Positions 180 through 11,651 of a stretch of DNA of 64,000 nucleotides are shown here, one piece after another. Position 1 is the first letter of the stretch, and the number at the start of each line of letters is the position of its first letter. The stretch is from positions 1 through 64,000 of the IMG/VR virus record IMGVR_UViG_3300034073_002131; one strand, 5' to 3'. The DNA comes from a virus. The position numbers and the translations under genes are program-made. Under the pieces are notes generated by a model, which saw nothing but the letters and a program-made list of their open reading frames with translations, did not search any database and was not told the origin of the DNA.

Positions 180-281
180 TAGATAGTCAATGTTAAAAAT
201 GGGTATTCAAAGTATCCGTTCCAAAAGGGTGCAAATCCTGATTAAGCATAGAGCTTGGTAAAAACAACATAGACTAGCCAT
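179..281 (+). other. tRNA-like or multi-hairpin domain
   Basis: The helix TAGTC (184-188)/GACTA (272-276) encloses three small hairpins: GGGTAT/GTATCC (201-217), AGG/CCT around 226-238, and AAGC/GCTT (244-256). The domain begins GG and ends GCCA, like a degenerate cloverleaf. A T-arm-like stretch, GGGTGCAAATCC, is present, but I cannot form a normal acceptor stem or anticodon arm. I do not call it a tRNA. Confidence 0.4.
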
Positions 282-465
282 AGTTAAGTATTTTGTTCGT
301 CCTAGGTGAAATAAACAGGACATTGCAGCCCAGAGAAATAAGGGTACCCGGCCGGTATATCCCTAAAGCGGGCTGAAGTTAATCGTAGCCGATCCTTAGC
401 GGGATCATATGGTAGGAAGATTAACTCATGCGCGAGCAGGCAGTAAGCAAAATACTTTACTATGG
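278..465 (+). repeat. CCA/TGG junction hairpin B
   Basis: CCATAGTTAAGTATTTTG (278-295) pairs with CAAAATACTTTACTATGG (448-465) with a single mismatch. The enclosed 150 nt fold into at least three hairpins (299-321, 326-375, 378-425). The closing GG is the first two bases of tRNA-Tyr, so the helix abuts the tRNA 5' end. Confidence 0.75.
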
Positions 466-550
466 ATGCGTAGCCAAACGGTTGACGGCAGCGGGCTGTA
501 AACTCGTGACATAAGAAACGCTGGTGGTTCGAATCCATCCGCATCCACCA
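464..550 (+). tRNA. tRNA-Tyr (GTA)
   Basis: Acceptor GGATGCG/CGCATCC is perfect. The anticodon loop is CTGTAAA, the variable arm is long as usual for bacterial tRNA-Tyr, the T-loop is TTCGAAT and CCA is encoded at 548-550. It is flanked on both sides by long hairpins that share its first GG and its CCA, so it sits inside the candidate large RNA. Confidence 0.95.
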
Positions 551-646
551 TATTGAAGCACATTAGAATCTGTAAAAAGATCAGGGCTGGTACACCACAT
601 ACCTCTCACAGAAAGTATGTATAGACCACAATGTGTTTCAATATGG
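548..646 (+). repeat. CCA/TGG junction hairpin C
   Basis: CCATATTGAAGCACATT (548-564), which includes the CCA of tRNA-Tyr, pairs with AATGTGTTTCAATATGG (630-646). All 17 positions pair, one as G-T. An inner stem ACATAC/GTATGT lies at 597-602/615-620. Confidence 0.75.
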
Positions 647-1008
647 CTGTTGACTGGCCCGATATATGGCACTCTAAAGCCTGAAGTGGGAAAACTTATT
701 TCTAGTCAACATCCGTAATTGCGCTGCTCACGCTGAACCTATAAACTCTAAACTGGTGACTAGGACGGGGTCGTACCCCATAACGATATTAGGCTGAATA
801 ACGATAACAGCTAAGTCTAGAGACCGCAGGGATGAGCACCTGCATATAATACATCCCGCAACGCTTAAATAGTCGTATCCCTAGACTATACTGCGCACTA
901 TGCGAAAAAAGTTACGAGTGATGGTGGACTACGTAATTGGACACTGGAGACCTGCGGGCCGTCGCCCAATAGTAACAAGACACTATGAATCCACTTTAGG
1001 GAGTGGGG

Positions 1009-1102
1009 CCATAGTTCAACTCATACTGATTCGCTGGTGACTGCCAGAGATAGCTCTTTCAGGCTGAAGAATGGGTTTAAGTGAGTTGAACTATGGTTTT
1101 TT
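1009..1102 (+). terminator. CCA/TGG hairpin D, possible 3' end of the large RNA
   Basis: CCATAGTTCAACTCA (1009-1023) and TGAGTTGAACTATGG (1082-1096) are a perfect 15-bp inverted repeat followed by TTTTTT. The 58-nt interior is long for an ordinary intrinsic terminator. The stem sequence belongs to the same family as hairpins A to C. It ends just before the ribosome binding site of the next gene. Confidence 0.55.
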
Positions 1103-1112
1103 GGAGATAGCA

Positions 1113-1439
1113 ATGAGTCGTACTCTAAAAGATAAACCGCATACTATACAGTATCCAGAAGATCACTACTTGTATGATACTGTTCGTGTAGATACTGATC
1201 TAGGCTCAAGAATTGGATTTCGGTACATACAGGTTGCGGGCAAAAAGACTAAAAAACGTAGAAACTACTGTCACTTCCGGTGGTATAGCACAACTCCTAG
1301 TTGGTGGACTCGTATTACAATGACTCGTCCGCAACGACGTAAGAGTCGTATGTGGGAACAAGTCGTAACTAGAGCTGTAGACTTAGAGCTACAAGATCCT
1401 CCACTGCTGGGACGTAAACCACACATATATTATTATTAA
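1113..1439 (+). CDS. hypothetical basic protein, 108 aa
   Basis: I chose the ATG at 1113 because TTGGAG lies six bases upstream. Longer versions would start inside hairpin D. The protein is rich in Arg, Lys, Trp and Tyr (for example KKTKKRRNY near residue 46), which may suit nucleic acid binding, but no domain is recognised. Its stop codon TAA (1437-1439) directly abuts G1 of tRNA-Ala at 1440. RNase P processing there would leave the stop codon as the last bases of the mRNA. Confidence 0.7.
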   Translation: MSRTLKDKPHTIQYPEDHYLYDTVRVDTDLGSRIGFRYIQVAGKKTKKRRNYCHFRWYSTTPSWWTRITMTRPQRRKSRMWEQVVTRAVDLELQDPPLLGRKPHIYYY

Positions 1440-1511
1440 GGGCTGCGCGCAGGGACGCAAAGGTGATTTGCAATCATTTTCCGCTGGGATCGTTACCCAG
1501 GCGGTCCACCA
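1440..1511 (+). tRNA. tRNA-Ala (TGC), unusual T-loop
   Basis: Acceptor GGGCTGC pairs with GCGGTCC (two G-T pairs), anticodon loop TTTGCAA, CCA at 1509-1511. The T-stem CTGGG/CCCAG encloses ATCGTTA instead of the usual TTCRANY, so bases 54 and 58 are A and T. The D-arm is short. Probably a divergent but real tRNA. Confidence 0.75.
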
Positions 1512-1517
1512 TACAAT

Positions 1518-1594
1518 GCAGGGAATAGTGTTAGTGGCAAGCACGTCTGTCTGTGAAACAGAAAGTTAGGGATCGAAACCCGTTCACCTGCCCA
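1518..1594 (+). tRNA. tRNA-His (GTG), unusual T-loop
   Basis: The anticodon stem TCTGT/ACAGA is perfect and encloses CTGTGAA. A G at position -1 faces C73, the histidine identity feature, and CCA is encoded at 1592-1594. The acceptor stem has two mismatches. The T-loop reads ATCGAAA, with A at position 54 as in the preceding tRNA-Ala. Confidence 0.75.
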
Positions 1595-1660
1595 GCCAAA
1601 TAAGATTTGGGAACCAACCCAAACAGCCCCGCAAGGGAACTTAAACACACGGAGATGTGT

Positions 1661-1858
1661 ATGATGGCATATAACGGATTAGACATTATTTCAGTCGATG
1701 TTCCGCTAATGCTTAGATTAATGGAATTTGCTAGAGAAGATGCTACTTCCGATAAGGATTTACACTTTGTAGCAGAGCACCTAATCAGGCTAATGCAAAC
1801 AAATACTCTCCTCACTATGAAACACTATGACGCAATAGTTGATAGAGGGGGTTTTTAA
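1661..1858 (+). CDS. small hypothetical protein, paralogue 1
   Basis: A 65-residue acidic protein. I chose the ATG at 1661 because GGAG lies at 1651-1654; a longer version from a TTG at 1607 is less likely. It shows the pattern V-P-x-L-M-x-R-L-M-E followed later by L-x-x-x-x-Y-x-x-I. The next gene has the same length and pattern, so the two look like a tandem duplication. Its stop overlaps the next start as TAATG. Function unknown. Confidence 0.7.
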   Translation: MMAYNGLDIISVDVPLMLRLMEFAREDATSDKDLHFVAEHLIRLMQTNTLLTMKHYDAIVDRGGF

Positions 1859-2061
1859 TGGGCGATAAATACTATAAGTTCGTAGAGATTGAGGTTAGCC
1901 CTAAACTCATGAAAAAGCTCTTAGAGCACGTAAAAGACCCTAAGGTAACGCAAGATCATATAAACTATATGATGGAAAACTTGATGTGGTTAAGTAAACA
2001 CGACGAGTGCCTTACCCTAGATGAATATGAAGTAATCACAGAGAAACCCATAGTTAGCTAA
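1858..2061 (+). CDS. small hypothetical protein, paralogue 2
   Basis: A 67-residue protein translationally coupled to the upstream gene through TAATG. The match to its neighbour covers nearly the whole length, with a conserved helix-rich core ending LTLDEYEVIT here against LTMKHYDAIV there. Sequence identity is low, so the duplication is old. An intrinsic terminator follows. Confidence 0.75.
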   Translation: MGDKYYKFVEIEVSPKLMKKLLEHVKDPKVTQDHINYMMENLMWLSKHDECLTLDEYEVITEKPIVS

Positions 2062-2068
2062 CTGTGGT

Positions 2069-2104
2069 CAACAAGAAAGCTTGCCGGCTTTCTTTGTTGT
2101 TTTT
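2069..2104 (+). terminator. intrinsic terminator
   Basis: CAACAAGAAAGC (2069-2080) pairs with GCTTTCTTTGTTG (2087-2099), followed by five T. It ends the small paralogue operon. Confidence 0.8.
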
Positions 2105-2139
2105 AAACTCCAAAATAAAAATAAGAACAGGAGAACAAA

Positions 2140-2898
2140 ATGGCAGAATCAATCACACCTGCAGGCATGATGATGAGTGGTGGCGACGGTCTTTTCGGAG
2201 GCGGCGGTCTTATTGGCGGTCTTATCCTAGGCAGCTTGCTACGAAACAACGGCAATCTATTCGGAGGAGACGGCAACGTTGCTGGAGCGGTTCTTCGTAA
2301 CCCGCCCGAGCAGACTCAAGCTAATATGAGTTTAATGAGTGCTATCGGTCAAGTAGACAAAGCCGTAGCTGTTGGTACAGCAGCCATGGAAGCTTCACAG
2401 GCTGCACAAAGCGCAGCCCTAGTTGCAGAAATTGGTCGTACAACTGGCAACCTTGTTAGCCGCGTCGATGCTACTACTGCAGCAGTTAATGCTGGTACTA
2501 TGGTTCTTGCTCAACAACTAAATGGTGTTGAGAAGTCAATCATGGAAAACCGCTATGAGCTTAGCAAAGATATTCAAGCTGATGGCGACAAAACCCGTGC
2601 CCTAATTACTCAACAGTATGAGGCCACACTAAATCGTCAACTTACAGATGCTAACGCAGCAATTATTGCCCTACAAAGTAAACTAGATAATGGTGCGGTC
2701 GCTCGCGGTGTTGAAGTTACTACAACTAACAACATCAATCAGATGCAACAGCAACAGCAACAGCAAGCACAGTGGGGTCAGCTCTACAACGTGCTCTGGG
2801 GCTTAGCTCAAAACATTCGTAGTAACAACGAAGCAATTAATGTTGGCAGCGGCACACTTACTGCTAATCCAACAAACACAAATACAAATATTAGATAA
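2140..2898 (+). CDS. probable structural or surface protein, Gly-rich N-terminus
   Basis: 252 residues with a good ribosome binding site (GGAG). Residues 1-50 are rich in Gly, Leu and Met and could insert in or lie along a membrane. Residues 65-200 are Ala, Gln and Thr rich with heptad-like spacing and probably form a coiled coil. A Gln run of about eight residues (near 204) precedes a short Trp-containing tail. No Cys, signal cleavage site or catalytic motif is visible. The gene precedes a collagen-like protein, which hints at a virion or host-surface role, but this is inference. Confidence 0.75.
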   Translation: MAESITPAGMMMSGGDGLFGGGGLIGGLILGSLLRNNGNLFGGDGNVAGAVLRNPPEQTQANMSLMSAIGQVDKAVAVGTAAMEASQAAQSAALVAEIGRTTGNLVSRVDATTAAVNAGTMVLAQQLNGVEKSIMENRYELSKDIQADGDKTRALITQQYEATLNRQLTDANAAIIALQSKLDNGAVARGVEVTTTNNINQMQQQQQQQAQWGQLYNVLWGLAQNIRSNNEAINVGSGTLTANPTNTNTNIR

Positions 2899-2915
2899 TC
2901 TCTAATTAACTGTTA

Positions 2916-2949
2916 GCCCCCCGTCCAAAAGATGCGGGGGCACTTTTAC
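2916..2949 (+). terminator. GC-rich hairpin, probable terminator
   Basis: GCCCCCCG (2916-2923) pairs with CGGGGGC (2935-2941), followed by ACTTTT. It lies between the 252-residue gene and the collagen-like gene. The T-run is short, so termination may be partial. Confidence 0.6.
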
Positions 2950-2952
2950 TAG

Positions 2953-3540
<588 letters not shown>

Positions 3541-3541
3541 A

Positions 3542-3754
3542 ATGGAACAAGCAATAAGAATTTATCCACATAATTGCACACAACAACAACAAGACTTTAT
3601 TAGACTAGAAGAATCAGTAGATACTCTAGCAGCAGCAAGCCTAGCCCTAGCAAGCCAAGGTGCACACGCATATCAACAATTTATTGATGCGCGTCAAAAT
3701 TTTACACAACTAGTTCGTGCCATGGGCAAGAACTACAGATATGTAGAAATTTAA
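3542..3754 (+). CDS. small hypothetical protein, 70 aa
   Basis: Begins one base after the collagen-like gene stop, in the same operon. Mostly helical, rich in Gln and Ala, with no Trp and one Cys. No domain recognised. A promoter follows directly, so it ends this transcription unit. Confidence 0.65.
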   Translation: MEQAIRIYPHNCTQQQQDFIRLEESVDTLAAASLALASQGAHAYQQFIDARQNFTQLVRAMGKNYRYVEI

Positions 3755-3756
3755 TA

Positions 3757-3785
3757 TTGATTTTACTAGTATAGCCGTGTATAAT
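3757..3785 (+). promoter_or_regulatory. sigma70-type promoter
   Basis: TTGATT (3757-3762), a 17-bp spacer and TATAAT (3780-3785). It drives the gene at 3817 and perhaps the downstream tRNAs. It belongs to the same family as the promoters near 6,540, 10,775, 12,690, 14,602, 15,644 and 23,899. Confidence 0.8.
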
Positions 3786-3816
3786 AATTACTTCGGTGTT
3801 TGAAAAAAGAGAAAAA

Positions 3817-4002
3817 ATGACAAAACAAGAAGCACTACTAATACTTCAAGCTCTGCCGGACGACACCGAAGTAACCATTATTTTAGGTAAACACTCCCAA
3901 CCAAATCGCTGGCAGATGCCGTACACAATATCCTATCCACCAACACCTTATTGGCAAGACCCTTATAAGGTAACTTGTACTAGCTATGAAACCAAAACTT
4001 AA
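3817..4002 (+). CDS. small hypothetical protein, 61 aa
   Basis: The ATG at 3817 lies about 25 bases after the predicted transcription start. An in-frame GTG at 3796 would sit almost at the transcript end, so I prefer the ATG. The protein opens with a short helix rich in Leu and ends in a Pro- and Tyr-rich segment. It overlaps the next small gene by 17 bases. Function unknown. Confidence 0.65.
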   Translation: MTKQEALLILQALPDDTEVTIILGKHSQPNRWQMPYTISYPPTPYWQDPYKVTCTSYETKT

Positions 4003-4108
4003 ACCTCGTAATCCCTATGTGGCACTAGCACACAAACGACGTGCTGGCACACATACCAAAACCCACAAGCAGGTTCGTGGTCAACTCAATCGCAAACTGG
4101 ATGCATAA
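3986..4108 (+). CDS. small basic protein, 40 aa
   Basis: A 40-residue, strongly basic peptide (MKPKLKPRNPYVALAHKRRA at the start), similar in character to short basic proteins seen in other phages. It overlaps the preceding gene by 17 bases. Its last three codons, including TAA (4106-4108), lie inside tRNA-Lys, which starts at 4099. Mature tRNA-Lys and a complete mRNA therefore cannot come from the same transcript. Confidence 0.65.
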   Translation: MKPKLKPRNPYVALAHKRRAGTHTKTHKQVRGQLNRKLDA

Positions 4109-4173
4109 CTCAACGGTAGAGTAACCGGCTTTTAACCGGTAAGCTGTGGGTTCGATTCCCTCTGCATCCACTA
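4099..4173 (+). tRNA. tRNA-Lys (TTT), CCA not encoded
   Basis: Acceptor GGATGCA/TGCATCC is perfect, anticodon arm ACCGG/CCGGT with loop CTTTTAA, T-loop TTCGATT. The bases after A73 are CTA rather than CCA, so the tail must be added by the host. Its 5' end overlaps the preceding gene by 10 bases. Its 3' side leads into hairpin E. Confidence 0.9.
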
Positions 4174-4233
4174 TATTAAAACACATTACTAAGAGTCCAG
4201 GTTCATAGCGTGGCATAGTGTGTTCCAATATGG
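4168..4233 (+). repeat. CCA/TGG junction hairpin E
   Basis: TATTAAAACACATTA (4174-4188) pairs with TAGTGTGTTCCAATA (4216-4230) at 13 of 15 positions, one of them G-T. The arms are bounded by CCA of the tRNA-Lys end and by TGG, whose GG begins the next tRNA. It is the shortest member of the family. Confidence 0.65.
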
Positions 4234-4332
4234 AAGGGTTGCTAATATTGGCCTTAGGGCGAGCCTTATAAACTCGTAAGCACTGTCTAGATAAGGCAGT
4301 TAATGTGGGTTCGATTCCCACCCCTTCTACCA
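4232..4332 (+). tRNA. class II tRNA, anticodon uncertain (TAT or TTA), 9-base loop
   Basis: Acceptor GGAAGGG/CCCTTCT with one G-T pair, a perfect T-arm GTGGG/CCCAC with TTCGATT, encoded CCA, D-stem CTAA/TTAG and a long variable arm (ACTG/CAGT). The anticodon stem GCGAG/CTCGT leaves a nine-base loop CCTTATAAA. If a C-A pair closes it to seven bases, the anticodon reads TAT (Ile). A shifted reading, TTA, would match the stop codon TAA. The long variable arm fits Leu, Ser or Tyr, not Ile. Identity unresolved. Confidence 0.65.
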
Positions 4333-4337
4333 TCAAT

Positions 4338-4431
4338 AGTGAGTTGGCTGAGCGGCTTAAGGCAGCGGTTTGCTAAACCGTCGATTCGGGTCACCCCGGG
4401 TCCGTGGGTTCGAATCCCACACTCACTGCCA
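4338..4431 (+). tRNA. tRNA-Ser (GCT)
   Basis: Acceptor AGTGAGT/ACTCACT, anticodon loop TTGCTAA, long variable arm, T-arm GTGGG/CCCAC, discriminator G and encoded CCA at 4429-4431. Lies five bases after the preceding tRNA. Confidence 0.95.
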
Positions 4432-4442
4432 CGGAGAATACT

Positions 4443-4748
4443 ATGAATTACTCTACAGAAACGCTTATAGCAGCACTAGATGCTATAATTATTAAAGCAA
4501 AAAATGTTAAAAGGGGCGATAGCGTTAGCTGGAATTCAAGCGGCGGTACTGCTCGTGGCAAAGTCACCAAAGTAATTACAGATGGCGAAGAACAAGTTCC
4601 GGGCAGTAGTTTTAAGATTACCGGAACGCCTAATGATCCCGGTGCCTTAATTAGAGTCTATCGCGAAGAGGATGGCAAGTACAAGCCTACAGATACCATT
4701 GTAGGACATAAAGTAAAAACTCTAACAAAAATTCCTGCACTGGATTAA
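4443..4748 (+). CDS. DUF2945 (hypervirulence-associated TUDOR-like) protein
   Basis: 101 residues. The ATG at 4443 follows GGAG inside CACGGAGAATACT, directly after the tRNA-Ser CCA. Residues about 20-98 show the DUF2945 pattern: GDSVSW, a small-residue turn, GKVTKVI, a variable loop, then DPGALIRVYREEDGKY and a final IVGHKVKTL. The family is a small beta-barrel of uncertain function found in bacteria and fungi. No signal peptide, so cytoplasmic. The next gene starts two bases after its stop. Confidence 0.8.
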   Translation: MNYSTETLIAALDAIIIKAKNVKRGDSVSWNSSGGTARGKVTKVITDGEEQVPGSSFKITGTPNDPGALIRVYREEDGKYKPTDTIVGHKVKTLTKIPALD

Positions 4749-4750
4749 CC

Positions 4751-4903
4751 ATGCCTTGCTATAAATGTTCAAATGGTAAGTATAAATATGGTCAACGTGG
4801 CAACTGCCAGTTTGACACCTTAGAGGCTTGTAAAGCTGCTGAAGCAGCTATTCATGCTCGTGAGTCCGAAAAACCTAAAAAAGAACAAAAACCTAAAAAA
4901 TAA
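4751..4903 (+). CDS. small Cys-containing protein, 50 aa
   Basis: Encodes a 50-residue peptide beginning MPCYKCSNGKYKYG, with Cys at 3, 6, 19 and 27 and a Lys-rich tail (KPKKEQKPKK). The CxxC pair and two further Cys could bind one zinc ion. Similar short proteins occur in cyanophages and other environmental phages, with unknown function. Start assigned from position right after the upstream stop. Confidence 0.7.
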   Translation: MPCYKCSNGKYKYGQRGNCQFDTLEACKAAEAAIHARESEKPKKEQKPKK

Positions 4904-4905
4904 AT

Positions 4906-4982
4906 GCACCTATCGTCTAGTGGCCTAGGACAACTCCCTTTCACGGAGTAGATCGCGGGTTCGAATCCCGCTAGGTGTGCCA
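4906..4982 (+). tRNA. tRNA-Glu (TTC)
   Basis: Acceptor GCACCTA/TAGGTGT, anticodon arm ACTCC/GGAGT with CTTTCAC, T-loop TTCGAAT, discriminator G, encoded CCA. Starts two bases after the preceding stop codon. Confidence 0.95.
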
Positions 4983-4986
4983 TATA

Positions 4987-5065
4987 CTGAGTGTATTGTC
5001 AGCCCGGTTAGACGGCCGAGCTTGGAACTCGGAGGCCGCAGGTTCAAATCCTGCCACTCAGACCA
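4987..5065 (+). tRNA. tRNA-Pro (TGG)
   Basis: Acceptor CTGAGTG/CACTCAG, anticodon arm CCGAG/CTCGG with CTTGGAA, T-loop TTCAAAT, encoded CCA. Four bases separate it from tRNA-Glu. Confidence 0.95.
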
Positions 5066-5070
5066 GATAC

Positions 5071-5146
5071 GCCGCTTTAGCTGATGTGGTCATAGCATGG
5101 GTCTGAAGAGCCCGGGAACCTGGTTCGATCCCAGGAGGCGGTACCA
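5071..5146 (+). tRNA. tRNA-Phe (GAA)
   Basis: Acceptor GCCGCTT/AGGCGGT with two G-T pairs, anticodon loop CTGAAGA, T-loop TTCGATC, encoded CCA. Confidence 0.93.
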
Positions 5147-5150
5147 CTAC

Positions 5151-5225
5151 ACCGGATTAGCTCAGTGGTAGAGCAATGTTTTGATAAAGCAGAGGTCACT
5201 GGTTCAATCCCAGTATCCGGTACCA
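5151..5225 (+). tRNA. tRNA-Ile (GAT)
   Basis: Acceptor ACCGGAT/ATCCGGT, anticodon loop TTGATAA, T-loop TTCAATC, encoded CCA. The anticodon stem is weak, with four pairs and one A-G mismatch. Confidence 0.9.
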
Positions 5226-5342
5226 ATTTGAGTTAGCTATAGGACTCAAACCACTATAGCCGTTTACTATCACCGACAAAGATAGCGTCATCCATAACAG
5301 ACGATACGGGTTATGCCGGACAGGTAACCGGCTTTTTCTTTT
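5226..5342 (+). ncRNA. possible small structured RNA ending in a terminator
   Basis: Directly after tRNA-Ile. Successive hairpins TTTGAGT/ACTCAAA (5227-5250), CTATC/GATAG (5267-5285) and CGTC/GACG (5286-5303) are followed by GCCGG/CCGGC (5315-5332) and a T-rich run. It may be a processed small RNA, or simply the trailer of the tRNA transcript with its terminator. Confidence 0.4.
5315..5342 (+). terminator. intrinsic terminator after tRNA cluster
   Basis: GCCGG, loop ACAGGTAA, CCGGC, then TTTTTCTTTTT. It closes the Glu-Pro-Phe-Ile tRNA run. Confidence 0.7.
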
Positions 5343-5369
5343 TACACACACAACACACAAGGTCTTAAC

Positions 5370-5609
5370 ATGCCGACTAAAAATCCCTATGAAATCCGCA
5401 CTGAGTTGCTGCAACTTGCTCAGGGCTATCTTCAACAACAGTTTGAAGCTAACAAACAATTTGCAGAACAAACCTTTCACCAAATGGTAGAACTTGGTAA
5501 AGTTCAGCCTGAAGATTGGGCTAAGCATATGCCCAAGTTTTACGACTTTAAAGACATTTTAGAGAAAGCCAAAGAACTATACGGCTTTGTAAATAATGAA
5601 AGTCGCTGA
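5370..5609 (+). CDS. hypothetical protein, 79 aa
   Basis: ATG after AAGG. Predicted fully helical, with pattern NPYEIRTELLQLAQGYL at the N-terminus and repeated Phe and Gln. Short proteins of this type are common in T4-like phages of marine and freshwater bacteria, function unknown. It overlaps the next gene by 14 bases. Confidence 0.75.
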   Translation: MPTKNPYEIRTELLQLAQGYLQQQFEANKQFAEQTFHQMVELGKVQPEDWAKHMPKFYDFKDILEKAKELYGFVNNESR

Positions 5610-5754
5610 TATGTGGCAGCGCGTCCTGGAATTTGTTCGTCCGTACACGTTCGAGGATTATGTCAAAGAATACGGTCCTAAAGATCATAAAGAACTAGAA
5701 GAACTAGAAAAACGTTGGCTAAGTACTAGTAACTGGTTCAATCGTTCACAATAA
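5596..5754 (+). CDS. small hypothetical protein, 52 aa
   Basis: Overlaps the upstream gene by 14 bases, which suggests translational coupling. Acidic and helical, with a Glu- and Lys-rich middle and a Trp at either end. It ends seven bases before the initiator-like tRNA. No recognised domain. Confidence 0.65.
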   Translation: MKVADMWQRVLEFVRPYTFEDYVKEYGPKDHKELEELEKRWLSTSNWFNRSQ

Positions 5755-5761
5755 CAATTTT

Positions 5762-5835
5762 CGCGGGATAGAGTAAAGGCAATTCAGGAGTCTCATAAGC
5801 TCCAGATGGGGGTTCGATTCCCTCTCCCGCAACCA
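5762..5835 (+). tRNA. tRNA-fMet (CAT), initiator-like
   Basis: C1 faces A72, a mismatch typical of bacterial initiator tRNA; the rest of the acceptor is GCGGGA/TCCCGC. The D-stem has A11-T24, also an initiator feature. The anticodon loop is CTCATAA. The three consecutive G-C pairs expected in the initiator anticodon stem are absent: the stem is GGAGT/GCTCC. CCA is encoded at 5833-5835. Confidence 0.85.
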
Positions 5836-5845
5836 AGGACCACAT

Positions 5846-6304
5846 ATGAGTGCAACAATTAAAAACTTAGAAAGTGCCCTAGCTGGTGAATCTATGGCAC
5901 ATATTAAATACTTATACTTTGCAAAACTTGCTGAAGAACAAGGCTTTTGGGAAGTAGCAGACCACTTCTACTGGACTGCAGATCAGGAGATTAAACACGC
6001 TTGGGGTCATCTTGAGTTGCTGATCGGCAAGCCTAATGTAGTAGAGTCTCTTGAGATGGCAATTGCTGGCGAAACTTATGAGTATACACAAATGTATCCT
6101 GAGTTTAAGCAGATTGCCACGGCTGAGCAAAATCTAAAAGTTGCCGCAGAGTTCAAAGAGCAAGAAGCAGAATCGCAAGATCATGCTCAGCAATTTGCTG
6201 AAATTCTACAAAAAGCAGAAAAGCGATTTGCAGCCCTTGCTAAAGTCGAACAAAAGCACGCTGAAGCCTATAAACAAATTCTTAAGGGAGTAGACCATGA
6301 GTGA
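5846..6304 (+). CDS. rubrerythrin-like diiron protein
   Basis: 152 residues forming a ferritin-like four-helix bundle. Iron ligands fit E15, E48-x-x-H51, further Glu around residues 77-105 and E-x-x-H near the C-terminus. Rubrerythrins reduce hydrogen peroxide using electrons from rubredoxin. The C-terminal rubredoxin domain of classical rubrerythrin is missing here and is encoded by the next, overlapping gene, so the two proteins probably work together in the cytoplasm against oxidative stress. The ATG lies ten bases after the tRNA-fMet CCA, with AAGGA spanning it. Confidence 0.88.
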   Translation: MSATIKNLESALAGESMAHIKYLYFAKLAEEQGFWEVADHFYWTADQEIKHAWGHLELLIGKPNVVESLEMAIAGETYEYTQMYPEFKQIATAEQNLKVAAEFKEQEAESQDHAQQFAEILQKAEKRFAALAKVEQKHAEAYKQILKGVDHE

Positions 6305-6440
6305 AGAACACGTTTGTGTAGTTTGCGGCTGGGTTTACGAAGGCAGCGAGCTTGACGAAGGCATTCACTGGAACGACCTTGAGCATGATTTTGAGTGTCC
6401 AGAGTGTGGCGTAGGTAAAAGCGATTTTGAAGTAGTTTAA
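6297..6440 (+). CDS. rubredoxin
   Basis: 47 residues with two CxxC knuckles, C7-x-x-C10-G and C34-P-E-C37-G, that bind a single iron, and the aromatic residues expected between them. It is the likely electron donor to the rubrerythrin encoded just upstream, with which it overlaps by eight bases. Start chosen from that overlap and AAGGGAG upstream. Confidence 0.9.
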   Translation: MSEEHVCVVCGWVYEGSELDEGIHWNDLEHDFECPECGVGKSDFEVV

Positions 6441-6451
6441 ACCTACTAATC

Positions 6452-6525
6452 CTCCCTATAGTGTAATGGCAGCATACCAGTCTCCAAAACTGTTGGTTGC
6501 GGTTCGAGTCCGTATGGGGAGGCCA
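6452..6525 (+). tRNA. tRNA-Trp (CCA)
   Basis: Acceptor CTCCCTA/TGGGGAG, anticodon loop CTCCAAA, T-loop TTCGAGT, discriminator G, encoded CCA. The anticodon stem carries one mismatch at its base. Confidence 0.92.
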
Positions 6526-6539
6526 AGAAAATTTTTGTC

Positions 6540-6568
6540 TTGACCCTAAATCGCAGATTTGCTATAAT
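6540..6568 (+). promoter_or_regulatory. sigma70-type promoter
   Basis: TTGACC (6540-6545), a 17-bp spacer and TATAAT (6563-6568), continuing ATTATTTC. It drives the gene at 6598 and the tRNAs beyond it. Confidence 0.88.
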
Positions 6569-6597
6569 ATTATTTCTGTGACAGTTTAGGAATCCAA

Positions 6598-6813
6598 ATG
6601 CAAGCATTAAATCAAGTTACTAGTCCTATGTTCTTGTTGCCTGCCTATGGCCGCCAGTATCGAACCCGTGAGCAAGTGCTCCGCGACTGGCAAGGGGGTA
6701 AAGACTTTCAAATTGAGGGTGGCCCCTACTGCTCGATTCGCGACCTTGACCTAATGCACAAGCAGTTTCAGAATATCTATATCCTGTACGACAGGGGAAC
6801 TGTACTAGTATAA
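6598..6813 (+). CDS. hypothetical protein, 71 aa
   Basis: First gene after the promoter at 6,540, with AGGA ten bases ahead of ATG. Contains YGRQYRTREQVLRDWQGGKDF and a Gly-rich turn, a pattern I associate with short conserved proteins of cyanophages and relatives. It may bind nucleic acid, but this is not shown. Ends five bases before tRNA-Leu. Confidence 0.72.
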   Translation: MQALNQVTSPMFLLPAYGRQYRTREQVLRDWQGGKDFQIEGGPYCSIRDLDLMHKQFQNIYILYDRGTVLV

Positions 6814-6818
6814 TTTAA

Positions 6819-6904
6819 GCCCCTGTGGTGGAATAGGTAGACACAAGGGACTTAAAATCCCTCGCTGAAAATGCGTGCCGGTTCGACTCCGGCCGGGGGC
6901 ACCA
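6819..6904 (+). tRNA. tRNA-Leu (TAA)
   Basis: Acceptor GCCCCTG/CGGGGGC, anticodon arm AGGGA/TCCCT with CTTAAAA, long variable arm, T-loop TTCGACT, encoded CCA. Confidence 0.95.
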
Positions 6905-6919
6905 CAGTTAGGAACTTAA

Positions 6920-7117
6920 ATGAAATACCCGTATGCTACGCTTAATATGTGTCTACGCAGTATGCTAGGCTCGCAAGAACTAGTAGACCGGTGGTACGAA
7001 TCGCCTAATCGTGCGTTTGATATGCAAACTCCGCTTCAAATGCTTGAAAGTGGTGACGAACCCCGTAGAACAGTATATAAATATATCCTAGCACAACTTA
7101 ACTATATTCCACAGTAG
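6920..7117 (+). CDS. small protein, weak MbcA/ParS-like pattern
   Basis: 65 residues. The segment LVDRWYESPNRAFDMQTPLQMLESG resembles the toxin-binding domain of MbcA/ParS/Xre antitoxins (W-x-x-x-P-N-x-A-F-x-x-x-T-P-L-x-M-L). No helix-turn-helix domain and no RES-type toxin gene is next to it, so it may be an orphan phage version. Its final codons and TAG (7115-7117) lie inside tRNA-Asn, which starts at 7108. Excision of the tRNA would remove the stop codon. Confidence 0.65.
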   Translation: MKYPYATLNMCLRSMLGSQELVDRWYESPNRAFDMQTPLQMLESGDEPRRTVYKYILAQLNYIPQ

Positions 7118-7182
7118 CTCAGCGGTAGAGCAGTTAACTGTTAATTAATTGGTCGTTGGTTCGATCCCAGCCTGTGGAGCCA
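7108..7182 (+). tRNA. tRNA-Asn (GTT)
   Basis: Acceptor TCCACAG/CTGTGGA, anticodon arm GTTAA/TTAAT with CTGTTAA, discriminator G, encoded CCA. Its first ten bases are also the end of the preceding protein gene. Confidence 0.95.
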
Positions 7183-7184
7183 AG

Positions 7185-7258
7185 TGGGGTATAGTGAAAC
7201 GGTATCACACAGGATTTTGATTCCCATATTCTTGGTTCGACTCCAAGTACCCCTGCCA
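7185..7258 (+). tRNA. tRNA-Gln (TTG)
   Basis: Acceptor TGGGGTA/TACCCCT with a T-T mismatch at 1-72, anticodon loop TTTTGAT, T-loop TTCGACT, discriminator G, encoded CCA. An open first pair is common in tRNA-Gln. Confidence 0.9.
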
Positions 7259-7264
7259 CAAATC

Positions 7265-7735
7265 ATGAAACAATTCGACCTAGAAGAAATCAAAGAGTTT
7301 ATTAGTGCTCAAAGCCCAGACACCAAGATATACTTAGGCGCAGATAGTGAGCGTGTAAGTGGTGGTGATTGTTGGATGGCTGAATACTACTTAGCCGTCG
7401 TAGTACATCTAGAAGGCAAGCACGGCTGTAAAATATTTGGTCAGATTACTCGTGAGCGAGACTACGATCAGCGACAGGATAAACCTGCACTCCGACTTAT
7501 GGGTGAAGTTTATAAAGTAGCCGAACTATTTAATGAACTAAGCGACGTCTTACAAGACAGATATGTAGAAGTACACCTAGATATTAATCCAGATGATCGT
7601 TACGCAAGTTCACAAGTAGTATCGCAAGCTATTGGATATATTCGCGGTACGTGCAACATAGAAGCACAAGTTAAACCTCAAGCATTTGCAGCAAGTTACG
7701 CAGCAGACCGACTAAAATTTATTCTTTCAAACTAA
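7265..7735 (+). CDS. DUF458/YkuK-like RNase H-fold protein
   Basis: 156 residues. The pattern IYLGADSERV at the N-terminus, VEVHLDINP in the middle and a C-terminal QAFAASYAADRLK match the YkuK/DUF458 family, predicted to have an RNase H-like fold with Asp residues as metal ligands. The substrate of the family is unknown. ATG lies six bases after the tRNA-Gln CCA with no room for a free ribosome binding site, so translation may be leaderless-like after tRNA excision. Confidence 0.8.
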   Translation: MKQFDLEEIKEFISAQSPDTKIYLGADSERVSGGDCWMAEYYLAVVVHLEGKHGCKIFGQITRERDYDQRQDKPALRLMGEVYKVAELFNELSDVLQDRYVEVHLDINPDDRYASSQVVSQAIGYIRGTCNIEAQVKPQAFAASYAADRLKFILSN

Positions 7736-7736
7736 A

Positions 7737-7958
7737 ATGACTAAAGACCGCTTTGATCTTGAACAAGAAATCCTAGATTGCTGGCATATCACTGATGATC
7801 TACAGACTATTATGGAAACAGATAGTCTTAATCTTAGCGACGATGTGCATAATCTCCTACTTGGACTTAAGACTCTTTATCACCTTAAGTTTGAGCGTAC
7901 TTTTGCAACATTTGAGCAGTTAGTTGCCCAACGCAAGCTAGACCAACGAATTATGTGA
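7737..7958 (+). CDS. hypothetical protein, 73 aa
   Basis: Helical protein with the pattern DRFDLEQEILDCWHITDDL followed by LKTLYHLKFERTFATFEQL, which I recognise as a small conserved cyanophage-type protein of unknown function. Starts one base after the upstream gene. The TGA stop (7956-7958) lies inside tRNA-Cys, whose first base is 7955. Confidence 0.78.
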   Translation: MTKDRFDLEQEILDCWHITDDLQTIMETDSLNLSDDVHNLLLGLKTLYHLKFERTFATFEQLVAQRKLDQRIM

Positions 7959-8031
7959 CGGTGTTGCTGAACGGCTAGGCTGCAGTCTGCAAAACTGTGT
8001 TATGTGGGTTCAAGTCCCACCCGTCACTCCA
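7955..8031 (+). tRNA. tRNA-Cys (GCA)
   Basis: Acceptor GTGACGG/CCGTCAC, anticodon loop CTGCAAA, T-loop TTCAAGT, discriminator T, encoded CCA. Overlaps the preceding gene stop codon. Confidence 0.93.
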
Positions 8032-8035
8032 CACT

Positions 8036-8110
8036 GCCCCTTTAGCTCAGTGGTAGAGCAGCCGCCTTGTAAGCGGCAGGTCATCAGTTCGAATCCGATA
8101 GGGGGCACCA
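8036..8110 (+). tRNA. tRNA-Thr (TGT)
   Basis: Acceptor GCCCCTT/AGGGGGC, anticodon arm GCCGC/GCGGC with CTTGTAA, T-loop TTCGAAT, encoded CCA. Confidence 0.95.
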
Positions 8111-8122
8111 CTAGGTATATGT

Positions 8123-8509
8123 ATGAACGAAGAACTTAAAGATTCCCTAAGTGAAATTGGCCGGGCATGGAACGAGGCTATGGATGCTATTGAACAAGCT
8201 AGCGAACGGTACTGGAATAGTTTAACTAAAGAACAACAGCTTGATGCGTTCTGTGCAGTATGCCGCCGCATCTACAAAGGTGACATTGAGGACAAAGGCA
8301 CTTACAGGTATGTCCTATACAACGTATTTGGTTTTGGTCCTGAAGCATACGCACAAGCACAAATGGCAGGATACCTGACTATTCATAACAGCATTTTTGA
8401 TGCTGATCACGATGACAACTTGCTAACTAAATTTGCTGAGTTTTGTGGGCTTGATGAGTCAAAAGTTAGTGAGTTTTGGAATCAGCATTCTTGGGCACAA
8501 AACCCATAA
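8123..8509 (+). CDS. hypothetical protein, 128 aa
   Basis: The core QQLDAFCAVCRRIYKGD, then YRYVLYNVFGFGPEAYAQAQ and GYLTIHN, is a pattern shared by proteins of many cyanophages and related environmental phages. Function unknown. Helical, acidic, cytoplasmic. The stop lies only a few bases before the tmRNA acceptor piece. Confidence 0.8.
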   Translation: MNEELKDSLSEIGRAWNEAMDAIEQASERYWNSLTKEQQLDAFCAVCRRIYKGDIEDKGTYRYVLYNVFGFGPEAYAQAQMAGYLTIHNSIFDADHDDNLLTKFAEFCGLDESKVSEFWNQHSWAQNP

Positions 8510-8570
8510 TATGATCGTATGAAGTTGACCCAAAGGTGCTTTGGACGCGGGTTCGACTCCCGCCTGGTCC

Positions 8571-8673
8571 ACCATAGATACATTACACCATTAACGCCAC
8601 GGGGTTATCTAGAGCTGCAGCTCGAAAAGCACACTGTGAGAAGTGCAGATAACAGTAGTGTATCTTTGATGGG
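8571..8673 (+). repeat. tmRNA intervening hairpin joining CCA to the coding piece
   Basis: GATACATTAC (8577-8586) pairs with GTAGTGTATC (8655-8664), and GTTATCT (8604-8610) with AGATAAC (8647-8653). The hairpin starts at the acceptor-piece CCA and closes at TGG just before the coding piece. The layout matches the tRNA junction hairpins. It would be removed during tmRNA maturation. Confidence 0.75.
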
Positions 8674-8755
8674 CCAGTCATGGTTTCGACAGGGCAATGA
8701 GTAGCAATACAGACGATCCGACACAGATAGTCGTTAAAAGTAAACAAAAACAAAC

Positions 8756-8788
8756 GCAAACGATGAAACGTTCGCATTAGCCGCCTAA
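8756..8788 (+). other. tmRNA tag reading frame ANDETFALAA
   Basis: Ten codons, GCA AAC GAT GAA ACG TTC GCA TTA GCC GCC, then TAA. The resume codon is Ala and the end FALAA is a typical protease-recognition tail. The tag is close to the betaproteobacterial ANDERFALAA type and so points to the host group. Confidence 0.92.
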
Positions 8789-8839
8789 ACTCGGCTTAGG
8801 GTTCCAGGTTATCCTCGTAACAGAAAACCTGGACTTAAA

Positions 8840-8864
8840 TGGCCATTTGGCATTTTTATTAACA
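8840..8864 (+). terminator. probable terminator after tmRNA
   Basis: Overlapping short palindromes (AAATGGCCATTT and GCCATTTGGC) followed by ATTTTTATT. They lie after the hairpin TCCAGGTT/AACCTGGA that follows the tag frame. Confidence 0.5.
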
Positions 8865-8890
8865 ATTCTTGCTCAATCGAGGAGAATAAG

Positions 8891-9331
8891 ATGACACTAA
8901 AAGATATTAATAAATACTTTCTAGGCTTTGATGAAGCTCAGGATCGCATTAACAAATTGCATACGCAAATGATTGCTAAGGCAAATGTTAACTATCCGCC
9001 TTATAATGTTCGTAAAACAGACGATCATAAATATCTCTTAGAACTAGCCGTTGCTGGGTTTAGGGAAAGTGAGATTAGTCTGGAAGTATCAAAAGGTGAA
9101 CTTGTAATTACTGCTCAAAAGTCTGAGCAGGAACAAGATAGTGAATATAAAGGCTGGATTCATCAAGGTATTGCCTACAGAGGCTTTACTCGTACCTTTT
9201 TCCTAGATAATCAGTATGAAGTCCTACATGCCGAGCTTAAAGACGGCTTGTTAAAAGTATACCTAGGCTTGCAAGAAACCATGAAGCCTAAGCGTATTCC
9301 TATTGGTGGACAACAGCATCTTGAACTTTAG
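8891..9331 (+). CDS. small heat shock protein (Hsp20, IbpA-like)
   Basis: 146 residues with an alpha-crystallin domain from about 38 to 135. Hallmarks are NYPPYNVRK at its start, ELAVAGFRESEISLEV, GIAYRGFTRTFFL and the GLLKVYL motif (consensus GxLxIxL). Hsp20 proteins bind unfolding proteins without ATP and are frequent in T4-like cyanophages. Start fixed by GAGGAG eight bases upstream. The stop TAG (9329-9331) overlaps the first bases of tRNA-Ser at 9330. Confidence 0.9.
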   Translation: MTLKDINKYFLGFDEAQDRINKLHTQMIAKANVNYPPYNVRKTDDHKYLLELAVAGFRESEISLEVSKGELVITAQKSEQEQDSEYKGWIHQGIAYRGFTRTFFLDNQYEVLHAELKDGLLKVYLGLQETMKPKRIPIGGQQHLEL

Positions 9332-9419
9332 AAGCGTGGTCGAGTGGTTTAAGGCACCGGTCTTGAAAACCGACGATTCCGTAAGGGGTCCGTGAGTTCG
9401 AATCTCACCGCTTCTGCCA
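9330..9419 (+). tRNA. tRNA-Ser (TGA)
   Basis: Acceptor AGAAGCG/CGCTTCT, anticodon loop CTTGAAA, long variable arm, T-loop TTCGAAT, discriminator G, encoded CCA. Overlaps the Hsp20 stop codon by two bases. Confidence 0.95.
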
Positions 9420-9423
9420 ACAC

Positions 9424-9451
9424 AGAGGGTGCCCAGCACCCTCTATTTTTT
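9424..9451 (+). terminator. intrinsic terminator
   Basis: AGAGGGTGC, loop CCA, GCACCCTCT, then ATTTTTT. It ends the Hsp20/tRNA-Ser transcript. Confidence 0.9.
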
Positions 9452-9463
9452 AAACTTGCGCCA

Positions 9464-9586
9464 ATGAACCAAACAAAAATTCCGCCCAGTACTGGCTATA
9501 TCATCCCTATAGCAACTAAAATGTTCCTAAATTGGACTGTGGATGAGTGGGGTTTCTGGAATGTAGAAGTGCTAGTTTTAGACTAA
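9464..9586 (+). CDS. small hypothetical protein, 40 aa
   Basis: A 40-residue frame starting at ATG 9464 after the terminator and ending one base before the next gene. Rich in Ile, Pro and Trp. No ribosome binding site is obvious, and it could be an untranslated leader. The tight spacing to the next gene is the main support. Confidence 0.45.
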   Translation: MNQTKIPPSTGYIIPIATKMFLNWTVDEWGFWNVEVLVLD

Positions 9587-9587
9587 T

Positions 9588-9770
9588 ATGATTTCACCCT
9601 GTATTAAAATATGTAAGCTAGACCCTAAACTGCAGATATGTATTGGCTGTTGGAGAACTAGGGAAGAAATTCAGGACTGGACAACCTACACAGATGAACA
9701 GCGACAGAAAATAGTAAATAGTCTTGCTCAACGATGGGCTAAACTAGCGGGTATAGTGTTTAACGGTTAG
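9588..9770 (+). CDS. DUF1289 family protein
   Basis: 60 residues. The spacing C5-x-x-x-C9 and C18-x-x-C21 with the sequence CIGCWRTREEIQDW matches DUF1289, small proteins predicted to bind an Fe-S cluster or zinc. Function unknown. The last 24 bases, including the TAG stop (9768-9770), are also the 5' part of tRNA-Gly, the deepest gene/tRNA overlap in the window. Confidence 0.85.
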   Translation: MISPCIKICKLDPKLQICIGCWRTREEIQDWTTYTDEQRQKIVNSLAQRWAKLAGIVFNG

Positions 9771-9824
9771 CACGCCAGTCTTCCAAACTCGAAGTGAGGA
9801 GTTCGAATCTCCCTACCCGCTCCA
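9747..9824 (+). tRNA. tRNA-Gly (TCC)
   Basis: Acceptor GCGGGTA/TACCCGC, anticodon loop CTTCCAA, T-loop TTCGAAT, discriminator T, encoded CCA at 9822-9824. Overlaps the preceding gene by 24 bases and shares its last base with the following start codon. Confidence 0.93.
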
Positions 9825-10393
9825 TGAAAAAAATTATACTTTCCCTATTCGACTACAGCGGTAATTGGCCCAAGTACTACCGCGACAGCGGCCTATACGA
9901 TGTATATCAAGTAGACCTTAAACTTGGCCTAGATATACTTGATATAAATCCTGGTGAACTGCCACAGCCTATACACGGTATCTTAGCCGCTCCACCTTGC
10001 ACAGACTTTGCTAGTAGTGGAGCGCAATACTGGACGCAAAAAGATAGGGACGGTCGTACCCAACAAAGCCTACAACTAGTAGATAAAACCTTAGAGATTA
10101 TAAGTTATCACGAACCCAAATGGTGGGTAATTGAAAATCCTGTAGGCAGACTTGCAAAATTACGTCCTGAACTAGGTACCCCTTGGTATTTTCAGCCGTG
10201 GTGGTTTGGTGACGCCTACACCAAGAAAACAGGTTTGTGGGGCACATTTAATCGTGACCTACCACAGAGTCCAGTCGATCCCGACCCTAAATCGCCAATA
10301 ATGCGGTTAGGCGGTAAATCAGAACGAACCAAAGAATTGCGAAGCATGACTCCGCTTGGGTTTGCTCTTGCATTCTACTTAGCAAATCCCTAG
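9824..10393 (+). CDS. DNA cytosine-5 methyltransferase-like protein
   Basis: 189 residues. The APPCTDFASSG segment carries the catalytic Cys of C5 methyltransferases (P57-P58-C59) and WWVIENPVGRL carries the ENP motif (104-106). The AdoMet-binding N-terminus is short (LSLFDYSG) and the usual C-terminal target-recognition and motif X regions are reduced, so it is smaller than typical Dcm enzymes. It may protect phage DNA or be a divergent modifier. The ATG A is the last base of the tRNA-Gly CCA and TAG overlaps tRNA-Val. Confidence 0.82.
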   Translation: MKKIILSLFDYSGNWPKYYRDSGLYDVYQVDLKLGLDILDINPGELPQPIHGILAAPPCTDFASSGAQYWTQKDRDGRTQQSLQLVDKTLEIISYHEPKWWVIENPVGRLAKLRPELGTPWYFQPWWFGDAYTKKTGLWGTFNRDLPQSPVDPDPKSPIMRLGGKSERTKELRSMTPLGFALAFYLANP

Positions 10394-10466
10394 TACCTTA
10401 GCTCAGCGGTAGAGCGTCTCGTTTACACCGAGAGGGTCGGGGGTTCGAACCCCTCAGGTACTACCA
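10392..10466 (+). tRNA. tRNA-Val (TAC)
   Basis: Acceptor AGTACCT/AGGTACT, anticodon stem CTCG/CGAG with TTTACAC, T-loop TTCGAAC, encoded CCA. Overlaps the methyltransferase stop by two bases. Confidence 0.95.
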
Positions 10467-10469
10467 AGC

Positions 10470-10757
10470 ATGCAACCCAAAGACACAGTACAAACTATCA
10501 ACTTTAAAGGTTATACGAATAACAAGTGCGAGTTCTTTCCTTGCCATACAGGAGTTAAAAAAGAATTTAACTGTTTATTTTGTTATTGCCCCCTAGTATT
10601 CCTAAAATGCCCCGGACCGTACAAAGTATTCCAAGACAAAAATGGCATTACCAGAAAAGATTGTAGTGCTTGTATCCTACCACATAACGGTATAGAACAA
10701 TCTTGGCGGTTTATTCAAGACTGGTTGGAGCGTCCCGAACCTTGGGATTATAAGTAA
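10470..10757 (+). CDS. cysteine-rich small domain protein (PF04071-like)
   Basis: 95 residues with a dense Cys/His pattern: NNKCEFFPCH, FNCLFCYCPL, KCPGPY, KDCSACILPH. This matches the cysteine-rich small domain, a presumed metal-binding module found alone or fused to cobalamin enzymes. The link to cobalamin is interesting because a B12-dependent ribonucleotide reductase lies downstream, but that is only an association. ATG starts three bases after the tRNA-Val CCA, so no free ribosome binding site exists. Confidence 0.8.
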   Translation: MQPKDTVQTINFKGYTNNKCEFFPCHTGVKKEFNCLFCYCPLVFLKCPGPYKVFQDKNGITRKDCSACILPHNGIEQSWRFIQDWLERPEPWDYK

Positions 10758-10774
10758 AGTATAAAATTATTAAC

Positions 10775-10803
10775 TTGAACTGGCTTGGTATCTGTGATAT
10801 AAT
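10775..10803 (+). promoter_or_regulatory. sigma70-type promoter
   Basis: TTGAAC (10775-10780), a 17-bp spacer and TATAAT (10798-10803), continuing ATTTATTATT. It drives the phosphoesterase gene. Confidence 0.88.
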
Positions 10804-10848
10804 ATTTATTATTACAGATACCAAGCCATTTATATTTAAGGCACAGAA

Positions 10849-11382
10849 ATGAACGTCTTTTTTTGTTCGGACCATCACTTTCATCACCAAAATATCTTAA
10901 AGTTTCTTCGTGATGACGGTACGCCATTACGTACATTTAGTGGCATCAATCATATGCACGAGCATATTATTGCTCAGCACAACAGTGTAGTAAAGCCTGA
11001 GGATAAAGTATATTTCTTGGGCGATGTTTGCATGACTAAGAATGCAGCCGGACTAGAAATTTTAGGTCGTCTTAATGGCACAAAAATATTAATTCGTGGT
11101 AATCATGACGAATGCAAGCTAGCACAGTACGCACAGTACTTTGATGATGTTCGTGGTGTGTGCCACAGGTACGGTGTAGTAATGACTCATGTGCCTATAC
11201 ATCCAGAAAGCCTAGATCGCTGGGGTACAAATCTACACGGACACCTACACTACCGGCGCGTTCTGTTACCAAACGGCCACCCAGATCCCAGATACATTAA
11301 TGTAAGCATGGAGTGCCTAGACAACTATACTCCACTTAGCCTAGACGAACTAAATAAACGGATTACAAAGAATGCAAAATAA
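10849..11382 (+). CDS. calcineurin-like metallophosphoesterase
   Basis: 177 residues with all main motifs of the fold: SDHHFHH (D and H ligands), FLGDV, RGNHDE, THVPIH and HGHLH. This set binds two metal ions and hydrolyses phosphoesters or nucleotides; the substrate cannot be told from sequence. AAGG lies ahead of ATG and a strong promoter about 50 bases upstream. Overlaps the next gene by 11 bases. Confidence 0.9.
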   Translation: MNVFFCSDHHFHHQNILKFLRDDGTPLRTFSGINHMHEHIIAQHNSVVKPEDKVYFLGDVCMTKNAAGLEILGRLNGTKILIRGNHDECKLAQYAQYFDDVRGVCHRYGVVMTHVPIHPESLDRWGTNLHGHLHYRRVLLPNGHPDPRYINVSMECLDNYTPLSLDELNKRITKNAK

Positions 11383-11566
11383 AAGCTGGCCGTGGCCAAA
11401 GAGCTCAGAAACCATAACTAATACTAATGCACAAAATACTGTCGTATACAGTCAAGTACCTGTAGGCAAACAAAACCTACTTACACTAAAAGATCCGGGT
11501 TGGATTGTTGGGGTATTCATTGGACTACTACTTTTCCTGCCACTCCTATACGCAGCATTTATGTAA
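11372..11566 (+). CDS. small membrane protein, 64 aa
   Basis: A polar N-terminal half (1-42) followed by one transmembrane segment, about 43-63 (WIVGVFIGLLLFLPLLYAAF). No signal peptidase site, so probably a C-tail-anchored inner membrane protein. Coupled to the phosphoesterase by overlap. Function unknown. Confidence 0.7.
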   Translation: MQNKSWPWPKSSETITNTNAQNTVVYSQVPVGKQNLLTLKDPGWIVGVFIGLLLFLPLLYAAFM

Positions 11567-11573
11567 CATATAC

Positions 11574-11651
11574 GGGCCTCTAGCTCACGGAGGTTAGAGC
11601 AACCGACTCATAATCGGTAGGTACTGGGTTCGACTCCCAGGGGGCCCACCA
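11574..11651 (+). tRNA. tRNA-Met or tRNA-Ile2 (CAT)
   Basis: Acceptor GGGCCTC/GGGGCCC with one T-G pair, anticodon arm CCGA/TCGG with CTCATAA, T-loop TTCGACT, encoded CCA. The first pair is normal, so it is not an initiator. CAT can read AUG, or AUA if modified by host TilS; sequence alone does not decide. Confidence 0.93.

Follow-up and report, generated by a model that had tools for sequence, protein, structure and literature searches.

A phage-encoded, circularly permuted tmRNA gene with a spacer that is exchanged as a block among related phages

Transfer-messenger RNA (tmRNA) is a nearly universal bacterial quality-control RNA, and the piece removed from permuted tmRNA precursors has, to our knowledge, so far been treated as waste. 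A complete gene for a circularly permuted tmRNA was found by Rfam, ARAGORN and reading of the sequence at positions 8513–8858 of the window, the stretch of 64,000 nucleotides (nt) that makes up the first 64 kb of the 98,028-base IMG/VR virus record IMGVR_UViG_3300034073_002131. We consider it highly probable that this is a working, phage-owned tmRNA of a T5-like phage, and that the spacer between its two pieces is a cargo site which holds a hairpin RNA here and microprotein genes in relatives. A swappable spacer slot holding tiny protein genes in other phages appears to be new, and in the open PMC literature we found no paper describing open reading frames (ORFs) in tmRNA spacers. The parts of the gene are as follows.

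8513–8574, + strand: acceptor piece with the T arm, the 3' acceptor strand (8564–8570), the discriminator A8571 and the encoded CCA (8572–8574), from the RF04321 and RF01850 matches, ARAGORN and the sequence.
8575–8670, + strand: spacer between the pieces, 96 nt, from the fold, the alignment with its identities and the spacer listing.
8671–8858, + strand: coding piece with the 5' acceptor strand GGGCCAG (8671–8677), the tag region and the 3' helices, from the RF01850 match, which extends to 8858.
8756–8788, + strand: tag reading frame GCA...TAA, encoding ANDETFALAA, from ARAGORN and the sequence.

The original prediction of a phage-encoded, permuted two-piece tmRNA with the complete tag ANDETFALAA is thus borne out by Rfam, ARAGORN, the sequence and the virus record, and the acceptor half does precede the coding half, as had been proposed. 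Both permuted covariance models are matched over their full length and above their cut-offs. RF01850 beta_tmRNA scores best, with 143 bits at 8462–8858 (E 1e-43, cut-off 84 bits), and RF04321 tmRNA_permuted reaches 126.3 bits at 8513–8788 (E 2.6e-24, cut-off 47 bits). A permuted tmRNA with the same tag is also called by ARAGORN, at 8482–8879. The one-piece order (RF00023) gave no better fit in the Rfam search, which reported permuted families only and does not display lower-scoring overlapping matches of the same clan. The acceptor stem predicted to form across the break pairs at seven of seven positions, GGGCCAG with CTGGTCC, and includes the G3-U70 pair (G8673-T8568). The resume codon GCA at 8756 specifies alanine, and the tag frame is closed by a stop and has AA at its hydrophobic end. 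The 231-nt tmRNA core folds 3.2 standard deviations below dinucleotide shuffles, none of 200 being as low, so the gene is more than a chance match. The segment from the acceptor strand to the tag (8671–8760) differs in architecture, with one short hairpin in the window and a longer segment in the relative L307 and its kin. An ATG frame of 61 amino acids (aa) that spans the acceptor piece and the spacer (8519–8704) was taken as chance, being broken in relatives with 59-nt spacers in an alignment judged by eye.

The pairing across the break is conserved well beyond the window. A gene pattern that left acceptor positions 4–6 and their partners free yielded 246 distinct genes, and 244 of these have a perfect stem of 7 base pairs (bp), many with compensated sequences. 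We infer that a single precursor would be transcribed, in which the long spacer hairpin and the acceptor stem would form one stack. Cuts by tRNA-processing enzymes of the host would then fall at the CCA at 8574 and at G8671, releasing the spacer while the two pieces stay paired. Host alanyl-tRNA synthetase would charge the tmRNA through G3-U70, and together with host SmpB it would release ribosomes stuck on mRNAs that are broken in the course of infection, the products being tagged with ANDETFALAA for proteolysis. Use during infection had also been suggested in the original prediction, and it is the role that we infer.

Among related phages the spacer is swapped as a unit. The spacers of L307 and L713 (96 and 59 nt) are unrelated, yet the two loci share 100% identity in the acceptor piece and 99% in the coding piece, with 96% in the upstream and 97% in the downstream flank. 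The window and L307 have the 96-nt spacer in common (99% identity, one difference), compared with 76% identity in the acceptor piece and upstream and 79% in the coding piece. A like pattern of similar flanks with differing spacers is seen for L718 and L158 (143 versus 74 nt), and among 253 genes there are 65 pairs that combine an identity of at least 94% in the mature parts with one of less than 60% in the spacers.

The spacer is mostly 59–161 nt long in phages and usually below 50 nt in the sampled chromosomes. A search with the tag alone gave 33 phage loci, 28 of which were called by ARAGORN and five were not; among the called loci, 25 have spacers of 59–161 nt and three have spacers of 30 nt. 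Later phage scans asked for spacers of 51–174 nt and are therefore unusable for comparing lengths. In 399 genomes from the order to which a Paraburkholderia belongs, 21 matches lie over the RF04321 cut-off; the five weaker-scoring ones are one-piece by ARAGORN, while 16 score at least 123 bits. Fourteen of these 16 permuted genes have spacers of 25–43 nt; that of L328, whose tag call is odd, reads as 5 nt, and L315 went unread. L325 is alpha-type. The spacer is 5–47 nt in 27 of 29 further chromosomal loci (two not called), and a phylum scan of 398 genomes gave 137 matches, 119 of them at most 240 nt long and five reaching 276 nt, the length seen in the window. Phages are not alone in having long spacers, since at least one chromosomal gene, the alpha-type permuted tmRNA L699, has a spacer of more than 100 nt, along with an extended, repeated tag region.

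If the spacer were a junk loop that tolerates insertions, the ORFs in the spacers of other phages would be there by chance. We scanned 264 distinct genes, grouped into 164 spacer clusters at 85% identity, and counted only ATG starts 4–19 nt after the CCA with a frame covering the spacer. Short spacers agree with the junk loop, as those of 51–81 nt show no excess (5 of 68 clusters, shuffle mean 6.7). Longer spacers do not: such ORFs occur in 15/51 clusters at 82–112 nt, 17/30 at 113–143 nt and 12/15 at 144–174 nt, against shuffle means of 3.8, 1.0 and 0.1, or in 44 of the 96 clusters with spacers of at least 82 nt compared with about 5 in shuffles. A Shine-Dalgarno-like leader is present in 38 of these 44 and in only 4 of the 52 without an ORF (Fisher 6e-16). 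Between the spacer ORFs of L582 and L616 there are 16 base differences in 75 positions but no change in any of the 25 residues. The pooled ratio of nonsynonymous to synonymous changes (pN/pS) is 0.41 in frame versus 0.75 and 1.24 in the other frames, based on 46 non-independent pairs left after pairs with gaps or outside 50–96% identity were dropped. Nine families moreover have relatives outside any spacer (counted by eye and including L520, which is not one of the 35 families below). A junk loop is very unlikely on this evidence.

The 61 distinct spacer ORFs fall into 35 families, whose listed first member stops within the spacer in 25 cases and enters the coding piece in 10. In closed ORFs the stop mostly lies in a conserved TGAT directly before GGG (33/61 distinct ORFs), so the whole message is contained in the removed piece. 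As this conserved TGA halts any in-register frame at -1, less weight attaches to the exact position of the stop than to the leader or the codon pattern. A strongly hydrophobic stretch of 17 residues is present in 14 of the 35 families. Most of the free-standing relatives lie immediately upstream of the acceptor piece, where they end 61–102 nt ahead of the CCA end. Within the T5-like group, the microprotein type of spacer, with a Shine-Dalgarno sequence and a spanning ATG ORF, is found in L718, L137/L138 and L707. Large neighbouring ORFs of the ORF-spacer loci have a PHROG match in 7 of 10 cases, some of these families being also bacterial. The ten spacer ORFs, out of 35 families, that were compared with PHROGs and Pfam gave weak matches only, and blastn and tblastn with few queries found no annotated phage with the same spacer ORFs, the exception being a different ORF in phage Melnitz. 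In L003, L004, L010 and L030 a frame that conserves PRNLFYTEREW-like residues, and resembles the L582/L616 spacer ORF, runs through the acceptor arm, the spacer and the coding piece, and the T loop reads TGCGAAT.

The spacer of the window is of a different type, as it has no ATG in its first 20 nt and no Shine-Dalgarno-like leader. Its predicted fold has a closing stem (8576–8586 with 8655–8665) and inner hairpins, with a z-score of -2.47 and 2 of 200 shuffles as low, which supports a hairpin stacked on the acceptor stem of the precursor. Such a closing stem is common to the spacers, with a mean of 10.2 bp versus 3.5 in shuffles and at least 6 bp in 155 of the 164 clusters. Rfam, run at E up to 10 on 8450–8900, gave only the two tmRNA families above cut-offs and no family for the spacer, and on 16 other phage loci its matches were confined to tmRNA, tRNA and a single tRNA-Sec. 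The least bold reading of the window spacer would be a processing hairpin, and the boldest a carried RNA. In L608 and L639 part of the 119-nt spacer, GTGGGTTCGAATCCCAC, looks like a T arm and may be a tRNA-like insert.

In our judgement the spacer is likely to be a mobile cargo slot and the precursor dual-purpose. The excised piece would be a structured RNA in the window and elsewhere a complete mini-mRNA for a microprotein. Such microproteins would often span the membrane once, and those of one family or more are relatives of a lysis-cassette protein. Frames that continue beyond the cut would leave the excised piece without a stop codon, as a nonstop mRNA, so that the same tmRNA could, hypothetically, control the microprotein carried with it.

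Several results weigh against the reading of a working tmRNA with a cargo slot. Inside the closing stem the fold is near that of shuffles in the 118 clusters without an ORF (mean z -0.44, compared with -1.30 in the 44 with an ORF), which speaks against structured RNA cargo as a general rule. No SmpB gene was found in the 98-kb record, so the function of the tmRNA depends on the host, and no sigma-70-like promoter was found directly upstream of the gene. In the T5-like group, assembled via the ligase protein, a permuted tmRNA over the cut-off is present in 23 of the 46 contigs searched from 80 fetched loci; the other half show none, partly because many contigs are fragments.

As for the genome itself, the T5-like label is one that we take to be defined by a family A DNA polymerase with 3'-5' exonuclease, an NAD-dependent ligase, a tape measure protein and a large tRNA cluster. 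All of these are present in the record, and the phage fits a T5-like siphophage. The record also encodes a DnaB-like helicase, an endolysin and an Rz-like protein; the polymerase is about 49% identical to that of Vibrio phage Thalassa and its kin, the tape measure gene is a tail tape measure, and 19 tRNA genes called by ARAGORN at 1–11651 surround the tmRNA. Two further features bear on the tmRNA and its spacer.

8891–9331, + strand: Hsp20-like small heat-shock protein gene that adjoins the tmRNA (Pfam HSP20 1.4e-13, phrog_432).
36116–36271, - strand: free-standing 51-aa ORF with a single transmembrane segment directly after the endolysin gene, a relative of the L651 spacer microprotein (tblastn).

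The second of these, whose 51 residues are encoded at 36119–36271, is 52.8% identical to the L651 microprotein over 36 aa by tblastn, and its neighbours, the endolysin and Rz-like genes, make up a lysis cassette. It was not found in the four long relatives searched and is therefore accessory in this lineage. The Hsp20-like gene directly follows the tmRNA gene, an adjacency that is kept in close relatives, where the tmRNA lies at the same place. The tags of relatives are ANDETFALAA, ANDEVFALAA, ANDSVYALAA, ANDSQFALAA, ANDNTFALAA, ANDETWALAA and one ending in KLVA. L720 was missed by ARAGORN and has an unusual T loop and a compensated acceptor stem, GGGGGTG/CACCTCC. Unusually long tags of 22–28 residues are found in L369, L388, L398, L467 and other phage permuted tmRNAs, e.g. 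ANADTFDFSAMSFTGNSVTGKSKVALAA.

The original prediction regarded the gene as host-derived. A recent copy of a host ssrA gene, kept passively or as transient baggage, would account for beta_tmRNA being the top-scoring model and for a tag string that matches Burkholderiaceae genes. The betaproteobacterial-type tag turned out, however, to be a weak pointer. An exact-tag pattern search of GTDB contigs gave 99 bacterial stretches, 80 of which were fetched and 19 not; 78 of the 80 loci are one-piece, two are uncalled, and none is permuted with this tag. The one-piece carriers belong to Burkholderiaceae, Colwelliaceae and others. As the exact tag is found only in one-piece genes among the bacterial loci called, it cannot name the host, and naming the host in this way was rejected. 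In the proposed comparison with Burkholderiales ssrA, the permuted chromosomal genes carry other tags and lie outside the branch of the window gene. That branch was seen in a tree of 210 thinned genes out of 302 distinct ones; it holds 117 sequences and none of the 12 beta-host and 24 alpha-host genes, which are a sample rather than an exhaustive set, and its deep support is only 0.73. The tree neighbours of the window gene are phage genes only, and relatives retain the gene next to Hsp20, in L720 with its compensated stem. Recent host capture is not supported by these comparisons, because the called bacterial carriers of this tag are all one-piece and the window gene sits in a phage-only branch, and we judge it quite improbable. 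A deep bacterial origin is likely.

The gene could also be the attachment-site remnant of an integrated element, as tmRNA genes are common integration sites according to the available part of PMC11915505. The gene is complete with its tag, however, no phage integrase domain (PF00589) was found in the whole 98-kb record, and the gene content is T5-like; this explanation has a negligible probability. An interfering decoy, which would draw SmpB or alanyl-tRNA synthetase from the host system without rescuing ribosomes, has a precedent in the tag-less tmRNA-like RNA of phage DS6A that inhibits endogenous tmRNA in E. coli (PMC11915505, available part). Here the tag frame is intact, and across phages the frames vary mostly within the tag and nearly always keep the AA end, which makes a decoy very unlikely.

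If the spacer is a gene slot in a working phage tmRNA, an entire class of microproteins escapes automatic annotation; the Melnitz record annotates none there. Processing of one RNA would yield two products together, and lysis or other steps of host takeover could be coupled by a phage to its own ribosome rescue. The gene-slot reading would also allow a direct test of the reason for which tmRNA is retained by large aquatic phages.

Two-piece tmRNAs of phages are already known, and the window gene is a further member rather than the first of its kind, since such genes are already in print (PMC9004378). The part of that paper available to us reports tmRNA in 402 of 18,146 phage genomes, suggests that 53 of 133 unique structures are two-piece, 50 of these being aquatic, and describes the two-piece tmRNA of Melnitz; the available part of PMC11915505 gives a total of 79 tmRNA sequences from bacteriophages and presents RF04321, the family that the window gene matches in full. 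The statement in the original prediction that phage tmRNAs are rare holds for isolated phages; in IMG/VR, however, three spacer-length scans for permuted genes gave at least 120, at least 119 and 72 stretches.

Melnitz (Methylophilales phage, MZ577097) resembles the window in being phage-encoded and permuted, with the acceptor piece first, a tag ending in ALAA and a long spacer. Unlike the window gene, its ssrA grouped with alphaproteobacterial genes (PMC9004378, available part; also in our tree), and its 142-nt spacer has a GGAGAAG Shine-Dalgarno sequence and an ATG frame, starting MFKWLSK, through the spacer, for which the record has no annotated coding sequence, whereas the window spacer is a hairpin and has no such frame. 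The RF01850 chromosomal permuted genes of some Burkholderiales share the piece order, the acceptor stem and the tag type with the window gene but differ in their shorter spacers (25–43 nt in 14 genes versus 96 nt) and in their tags, and the window gene lies outside them in the tree. For the run-on spacer ORFs of other phages alone, a comparison may be made with ArfA and the nonstop-mRNA feedback of E. coli (PMC10107115, available part), in which the mRNA of a small protein lacks a stop codon and is repressed by trans-translation; ArfA is not homologous, and the likeness would be one of working principle.
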